Positions 17,582 to 19,363 of a stretch of DNA of 64,000 bases are shown here, one piece after another; position 1 is the stretch's first letter; each line of letters opens with the position of its first letter. The stretch lies in the NCBI RefSeq assembly GCF_001983935.1, contig NZ_CP017641.1:930001-994000 (forward strand), in the 5' to 3' direction. A model generated the notes under the pieces. It was not told the origin of the DNA. It saw only the letters and a list, made by a program, of their open reading frames with translations, and made no database searches. The position numbers and the translations under genes are program-made. Origin of the DNA: Fuerstiella marisgermanici (GTDB lineage: Bacteria; Planctomycetota; Planctomycetia; Planctomycetales; Planctomycetaceae).

Positions 17582-19363
17582 GTGAGTACCGGGTCTCATT
17601 ACACCGTCTTGGCTCGCCGATTTCGGCCGCAGGCGTTTGGCGACGTTGTCGGACAGGAGCACGTCTCTCAGGCGCTGTGCAACGCCATTCGTTCCGGTCG
17701 AGTGGCCCACGCGTACTTGTTTACTGGTGCCCGCGGCGTTGGAAAGACTTCCAGTGCTCGTATTCTGGCCAAAGCTCTAAACTGCCCGAACGCCGTGGAC
17801 GGCGTTCCGTGCAACGAGTGTGAAATCTGCGACGGCATCTCGGCGGGCGACGACGTCGACGTCATGGAGATCGACGGTGCGTCCAATAACGGCGTTGAAA
17901 ATATTCGCATGCTGCGAGCCAACGTCAACATGCGGCCGATGCATTCGACGTTCAAGATTTACATCATCGACGAAGTTCACATGCTGTCGACGGCCGCCTT
18001 CAACGCGCTGCTGAAGACGTTGGAAGAACCACCGCCCAACGTGAAGTTCGTGTTTTGCACGACTGAGCCCAATAAGGTGCCTGACACGATTTTGTCACGC
18101 TGCCAGCGGTTCGACTTCAGCGCGATTGGCGAAGAATCGATCGGTAAACGGCTGAAGGAAATCGCAACGGCCGAAGGCTTTGAAGTGGAGGACGAAGCCG
18201 TTGAACTGGTGGCTCGACGAGCACGAGGGTCGATGCGAGACAGTCAGTCGCTGTTCGATCAGTTGCTGGCTTTTAGCGAAGGGACCGTCAAGGCGGACGA
18301 CGTGCATCGTATGCTGGGCACCGCCAGCGATGACATGCTTGTTGCTTTGTTCGACGCGATGTCACAGCATCGGCCCGGCGAAGTGCTCAACATTCTGGAC
18401 CAGGCTCTCACGGCGGGTGTGCAGGCCGGTGAATTGCTTGACCAGTGCGTCGGCTACGTCCGAGACCAGATGGTCACTCTTTCCGGCGGAGCAAAAGTGC
18501 CGCTGTGCAGCGTGGGAAACAGTCGGCGAGAATCCGTGCAACAGCAGGCCGCCGCACTAGGAATGCCTAACGTCATGGCTGCGTTTCAGATTTTGTCTGA
18601 GGCGAAGGGCCGAATGATGCGCAGCACATTTGCTCGAGTCCTGCTGGAAATGGCACTCGTTCAGATTGCGATGCTCGAAAATTTGACGGCAATCAGCAGT
18701 TTGCTGTCGGGCAACCTTCCCGCCTTGCCAGACCACGCGGGTGCGACCGAGTCCACTGTGGCGCCTGCCGCTGAAGCGTCTGCGACTGACGAAAAAAAAA
18801 ACTTAGCGGAAACTAGTGCCGATCCGGAAAAACCGGCCGACGGTCCTGCCTCCCCATCGCCTGAGATCAAATTCAGCGCAGAGAATGCTGAGCGGATTCT
18901 GGCGGAACTTATTTCAGAATCAGGGTTTACGCTTTCTGCCGCTCTCAGGGTTGTTTCGTCAATAGCAATTTCCGGGCCAAACGGGCTGGAAATTCAACTG
19001 GGTGCATCCTATGATTTCCAGCGACGCGTGATTGAGCAGTCGGAAAGTCGGCTGGCAATCCAGGCGATAGTCTCACGTCTAACGGGTGTTGATGCTGCGG
19101 TTAGTATGAAGCTGATTGCAGATTCTCCACCGGTCACAAATAAGGCTGAGCCTGCCGCGGCTGCGCCTGCGAAGCCAAAGTTGGCAGACGCAGGGAAGAA
19201 TGAACCGCCGAAAGTGAAAGGTCCGTCGCCGTTGCGAATTCGTAACGACGTCGATCCGGAGCAGGACGCGTTTGTGCAGCAGGTAGTGCACTTTTTTGAC
19301 GCAACGGTCGTGCGTGTTACTGACGCCCCGGTGCGGCGAGACGTGCCGGACGAAGATACATAG
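17582..19363 (+). CDS. dnaX: DNA polymerase III subunit gamma/tau
   Basis: The clamp-loader motor, 593 residues if read in full (tau-like). I place the start at GTG 17582, since 'STGSHYTVLARRFRPQAFGD' is where the family begins and AAAGGA lies 11 nt upstream. The open frame back to 17204 is not protein-like. Visible are the Walker A 'FTGARGVGKTSSAR' (Lys ~53), the zinc module 'CPNAVDGVPCNECEICDG', Walker B 'IIDEVHMLS', sensor 1 and the SRC arginine-finger motif 'ILSRCQRFDF'. Domain III follows, then a Pro/Ala-rich linker and a tau tail. The linker carries an A10 run at 18792-18801 (separate entry) that may yield a shorter gamma form. First gene of the dnaX-ybaB-recR-rpoN cluster. Confidence 0.95.
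   Translation: MSTGSHYTVLARRFRPQAFGDVVGQEHVSQALCNAIRSGRVAHAYLFTGARGVGKTSSARILAKALNCPNAVDGVPCNECEICDGISAGDDVDVMEIDGASNNGVENIRMLRANVNMRPMHSTFKIYIIDEVHMLSTAAFNALLKTLEEPPPNVKFVFCTTEPNKVPDTILSRCQRFDFSAIGEESIGKRLKEIATAEGFEVEDEAVELVARRARGSMRDSQSLFDQLLAFSEGTVKADDVHRMLGTASDDMLVALFDAMSQHRPGEVLNILDQALTAGVQAGELLDQCVGYVRDQMVTLSGGAKVPLCSVGNSRRESVQQQAAALGMPNVMAAFQILSEAKGRMMRSTFARVLLEMALVQIAMLENLTAISSLLSGNLPALPDHAGATESTVAPAAEASATDEKKNLAETSADPEKPADGPASPSPEIKFSAENAERILAELISESGFTLSAALRVVSSIAISGPNGLEIQLGASYDFQRRVIEQSESRLAIQAIVSRLTGVDAAVSMKLIADSPPVTNKAEPAAAAPAKPKLADAGKNEPPKVKGPSPLRIRNDVDPEQDAFVQQVVHFFDATVVRVTDAPVRRDVPDEDT
18792..18801 (+). promoter_or_regulatory. A10 slippery run in dnaX (candidate gamma-producing slippage site)
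   Basis: Ten consecutive A residues sit in frame as GAA AAA AAA AAC, just after the ATPase/domain III portion. If an A is gained or the ribosome slips -1, translation reads K-K-K-L-S-G-N and stops at TAG 18814-18816, giving ~411 residues. If an A is lost or the frame shifts +1, it stops at TAG 18804-18806, giving ~407 residues. Both match a gamma-sized product. Thermus dnaX uses transcriptional slippage on an A run in the same region, and E. coli uses -1 frameshifting. No strong upstream ribosome site is seen; a weak CCGG-A5-CCGG hairpin lies just downstream. Confidence 0.6.

Follow-up and report, generated by a model that had tools for sequence, protein, structure and literature searches.

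Candidate programmed transcriptional slippage at a conserved adenine run in dnaX of the Planctomycetia

The A10 run and its predicted products

In the dnaX gene of Fuerstiella marisgermanici we identified a run of ten adenines (A10) that is very probably a programmed transcriptional slippage site. According to the mechanism that we propose, RNA polymerase would realign on the run, producing dnaX mRNAs with 9, 10, 11, or a higher number of A's; the tau subunit of 593 amino acids would be translated from those that have 10 (or 10 ± 3n) A's, and all other run lengths would lead to a TAG a few codons past the run and hence to a gamma subunit of 407 to 411 amino acids, consisting of domains I to III minus the tau tail. 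Slippage itself, the ratio of the products, and the working of gamma in the clamp loader are what we infer from the gene sequences.

In the window, that is, the whole stretch of 64,000 nucleotides that was analyzed, dnaX is followed by ybaB/ebfC and then by recR, and tau is encoded in one uninterrupted frame, the gene being a single open reading frame (ORF) (Table 1). The A10 run falls in the linker between domain III, whose Pfam match ends at residue 369, and the tau tail, where it specifies E404, K405, K406, and N407 of the 593-amino-acid product. An earlier note on this DNA had described the run as encoding E-K-K-N at the junction of domain III and the tau tail, and had derived from it a 411-residue product upon gain of an A and a 407-residue product upon loss of one, against 593 residues for the full-length form; all of these can be read straight from the sequence. 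An Rfam scan of positions 18500 to 19100 returned no match. A terminator or a promoter at the run was ruled out, as a consensus scan placed neither there.

Table 1. Features of the dnaX locus (positions in the window)
Feature	Position	Strand	Basis
dnaX, full-length tau frame, 593 aa	17582..19363	+	GTG start, inferred from relatives; TIGR02397 443.7 bits (cut-off 250)
ATPase part (Pfam DNA_pol3_delta2 / AAA), residues 24-181	17651..18124	+	Pfam
Domain III (Pfam DNA_pol3_gamma3), residues 236-369	18287..18688	+	Pfam
A10 slippage run (candidate), codons GAA AAA AAA AAC, residues 404-407	18792..18801	+	Sequence; A9/A10 in 131/166 class genes
TAG in the +1 frame (one A lost or two gained), predicted 407- or 408-aa gamma	18804..18806	+	Sequence; class-conserved early +1 stops
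TAG in the -1 frame (one A gained), predicted 411-aa gamma	18814..18816	+	Sequence; class-conserved early -1 stops
tau-specific tail, residues about 440-593, not in gamma	18899..19360	+	Translation; equivalent class tails are the profile template for the -1 tails of f17 and f23

As far as base composition is concerned, the run is nothing unusual: the window has no other run of nine or more A's or T's, and shuffled window sequence contains on average 0.69 such hits per 64 kb. The case thus rests on the conservation of the run at this place in relatives. Pattern searches of the whole 8.92-Mb genome gave 32 overlapping A9+/T9+ hits, which correspond to 25 distinct runs, and long ORFs contain few of these; the 32 hits amount to about one third of the number predicted from the shuffled composition of the window, which suggests that slippage-prone runs are generally avoided in this genome. 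Two copies of an A9 run elsewhere in the same genome (L239 and L254, contig 1, near 248668 and 3864350) have identical flanks and are located at codon 95 of a 103-amino-acid ORF, with a longer ORF overlapping it in a different frame; their sequence context resembles that of a site of frameshifting or slippage in a transposase gene.

Conservation of the run across the class

The class sample consisted of 166 complete dnaX genes from 104 genera, the named close relatives among them being Planctomycetaceae; the group codes (f1, f17, and f23) follow the genome collection. Exactly nine (76 genes) or exactly ten (55 genes) A's occur in the linker after residue 376 in 131 of the 166 genes, at a median position of residue 404, and the shifted frames beyond are closed early, so that the question raised by the earlier note, whether relatives keep an A9 to A11 run together with out-of-frame stops, can be answered in the affirmative. 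In the same linkers, A8 was found in one gene, A7 in four, and A11 or longer in none. Since these genes are related and share kinship, per-gene counts overstate independence, and we also report the count by genus, with A9 or A10 in 82 of 104 genera, and the changes on a tree of DnaX domains I to III, where the run is found in the majority of family groups and changed about 22 times. The run is probably ancestral in the class and was repeatedly lost, even though the change count alone cannot tell gain from loss. In the genus of the window, all seven dnaX genes recovered carry A10 within diverged flanks.

It could be argued that the run is a chance or protein-level feature, namely, a Lys-rich linker written with AAA codons and devoid of any recoding, given that the linker is variable and hydrophilic and that one A9+ run in 64 kb is unremarkable in view of the base composition. 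However, when synonymous codons, those of the run among them, were drawn according to the usage of the respective gene, 15.8 ± 3.4 genes with A9+ were expected compared to the 131 observed, an eightfold excess. The preference for AAA over AAG among Lys codons is limited to the run (278:26 within it versus 1186:1533 elsewhere in the class genes), and no A8 or longer run occurs in the upstream 187,779 bases of the same genes. Furthermore, the run occupies all three reading phases in the class, with 18 phase changes on the tree that alter the encoded residues, which implies that it is the nucleotides that are conserved and not a codon frame or a peptide. The codon and phase tests led us to reject a protein-level explanation of the run, and the early stops in both shifted frames described below are likewise at odds with this reading, chance included, which we hold to be very unlikely.

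Long A/T runs are slip-prone in replication as well (PMC1088944), and the species of the class alternate between lengths 9 and 10, features that a DNA-level phase variation tract, turning tau on and off between cells by replication slippage, would share. Against it, in all class genomes with the run, the tau frame stays open through it. Moreover, dnaX is essential in the bacteria studied, and a state in which tau is off is therefore unlikely; we find such a tract scarcely credible.

The run is missing in about one fifth of the class dnaX genes, and the production of gamma by the slippage route would thus not be universal in the class. Thirteen class genes that appeared to lack A9+ in a first pass were inspected, and no common replacement signal was evident among them; one (L025), whose linker is longer, contains an A9 after all, at a point farther downstream.

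Stops in both shifted frames and search for stimulators

Slippage by the polymerase needs stops in both shifted frames, while -1 frameshifting by the ribosome needs just one. In the class, a stop occurs no more than 10 codons past the run in the -1 frame in 93% of the cases, in the +1 frame in 91%, and in both frames in 85%, compared to 12 to 14% with stops in both frames at random linker positions or in synonymous tails. The closure of both frames points to polymerase slippage rather than to -1 frameshifting, and the sequence comparison as a whole indicates that the 9 to 10 A's and the two stops are under class-wide selection. Many bacterial genomes show avoidance of A/T runs from a length of nine, which is also the run length on which Thermus dnaX slips (PMC1088944, PMC5009743, PMC6260861).

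The main competitor of polymerase slippage is ribosomal -1 frameshifting of the Escherichia coli type, in which the run would be read faithfully by RNA polymerase and gamma would arise during translation. In its favor, A_AAA_AAA is contained in the run, the E. coli dnaX site being A_AAA_AAG (PMC5009743), and the sister family f17 has exactly A7 followed by a stem-loop. A -1 heptamer needs 7 nucleotides, and ribosomal frameshifting would predict runs of the A7 type, yet 9 to 10 A's are found, and A7 and A8 are almost missing; moreover, it needs the -1 stop alone, yet +1 stops are equally enriched. As judged with simple windows and motifs, neither of the usual stimulators is enriched: the fold of the 50 nucleotides after the run has a z score of -0.55 in the window and a mean of -0.23 in the class, compared to -0.31 in the control, and no Shine-Dalgarno sequence precedes the run in the window, Shine-Dalgarno-like tetramers occurring in 8% of the class genes compared to 10% of the control. 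These results bear out what the earlier note had stated about the missing Shine-Dalgarno sequence, and favor, as it did, slippage by RNA polymerase. We therefore consider it improbable that ribosomal frameshifting is the source of gamma. Since both A_AAA_AAA and A_AAA_AAC, but not A_AAA_AAG, are present inside A10, some -1 shifting by the ribosome is possible and could add somewhat to slippage.

Inverted dnaX genes elsewhere in the phylum

Outside the class, mostly in the same phylum, an A9+ run was found in 11 of the 85 dnaX genes sampled. Several outside-class genes are inverted, with a short ORF in frame and the tau tail in another frame, an arrangement absent from the window dnaX, in which the tau tail is in the 0 frame. 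Two genes (L301 and L307) carry A10 with a 0-frame stop 3 to 4 codons beyond it; their tau tail, encoded in the -1 frame, matches the class tau tails with hmmsearch values of 3e-15 and 1e-14, respectively. At these two loci, slippage would make tau and not gamma.

Two groups of the same phylum present inverted genes with other signals. In group f17 (L309 to L312 and L359 to L388), the in-frame ORF encodes 377 to 405 amino acids, and exactly A7 is found just ahead of the gamma stop in 26 of 32 genes and GGGAAAA in 5 of 32. The tau tail of these genes lies in the -1 frame, and a stem-loop is frequent past the gamma stop (mean fold z of -1.97). Group f23 (L389 to L407, together with L300, L302, L303, L308, and L345) has no A run; NNC_CCN lies one or two codons ahead of the gamma stop in 17 of 18 genes, the tau tail is again in the -1 frame, and a GC-rich stem-loop comes right after the gamma stop (mean fold z of -2.74). 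The -1 tails of f17 and f23 align with the class tau tails with hhalign probabilities of 98.5 and 97.9%, respectively. Heptamers and Z_ZZN tetramers are known classes of -1 motifs (PMC4066793), and the f17 and f23 sites look like ribosomal frameshift sites, that of f23 being of the C_CCN type, for which no report as a dnaX signal was found in the papers searched. The detection of stem-loops in these groups indicates that the tests applied to the class do find stimulators where they are present. As far as the sequences tell, the structured A7 sites and the unstructured A9/A10 sites represent two distinct solutions.

Other arrangements were also observed. One gene (L299) has a short dnaX ORF (380 amino acids) with a long tail-like open frame in +1 and no A run, and the short dnaX ORFs of group f33 (L304, L305, L313, and L314), with ybaB immediately downstream, have no evident hidden tau frame.

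Taken together, it seems rather likely to us that dnaX recoding is strongly selected in much of the Planctomycetota, and that the cis-signal has been exchanged between gamma-making slippage of RNA polymerase, marked by A9/A10 without structure and by the closure of both shifted frames, and tau-making -1 ribosomal frameshifting, the latter with exactly A7 or G_GGA_AAA in one family and, in another, with C_CCN immediately ahead of the gamma stop and a GC-rich stem-loop.

Comparison with known systems and significance

The closest known system is dnaX of Thermus thermophilus, in which Larsen et al. (2000), by the account of PMC1088944 and PMC5009743, found transcriptional slippage on A9. The two share the gene, a sense-strand poly-A run of at least nine after domain III, tau encoded in one ORF, near stops in both shifted frames, and gamma expected from shifted messages; they differ in the phylum, in the length of the run (A9 there and A10 here, A9 or A10 in the class), and in that slippage and its products are here predicted from the genes. 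The likeness to Thermus dnaX drawn by the earlier note is thus upheld, and its proposal of programmed slippage giving gamma is supported by the class comparison. We regard the site as a putative case of Thermus-type dnaX slippage that the comparison supports unusually well, the gamma protein being predicted from the conserved site. Three dnaX genes of Ignavibacteria and Bacteroidetes (L068, L094, and L112) carry A9 in the linker, and both shifted frames soon reach a stop; the Thermus-type layout, as read from the sequence, thus occurs outside this phylum too.

The E. coli gene, with its -1 ribosomal frameshift at A_AAA_AAG (PMC5009743), has in common with the gene examined here the expected product pair and an A-rich site between domain III and the tau tail; different from E. 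coli, the run is longer, both frames are closed, and neither an upstream Shine-Dalgarno sequence nor a downstream stem-loop signal is present. Inverted two-ORF dnaX genes with poly-A are known from GeneTack clusters (PMC3711429) and resemble the present case in a poly-A run of similar length and in dual products; however, a shift is needed for tau there, whereas here tau is in frame and gamma would need the shift. In tssM3 of Yersinia pseudotuberculosis, an unrelated gene, poly-A slippage leads to a shorter product via a shifted-frame stop, as predicted here, and has been demonstrated experimentally (PMC4256274). In the openly accessible main texts searched, no report of planctomycete dnaX slippage was found, and an earlier listing elsewhere is possible.

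A survey of 2005 pointed out that truncating slippage sites are hard to validate comparatively, for lack of new coding sequence (PMC1088944); run length and stops in two frames offer here a way around that problem. The putative slippage site would extend the known Thermus-type kind; greater novelty lies in the apparent coexistence of different mechanisms in a single phylum, which constitutes a natural experiment, in one gene, on slippage versus frameshifting.

It has long been argued whether bacteria beyond a few models make, and need, the short gamma form. A putative slippage site spread over a whole class, along with sister lineages that seemingly reach the same pair of products otherwise, would argue strongly, on evolutionary grounds, for the usefulness of the gamma/tau pair.
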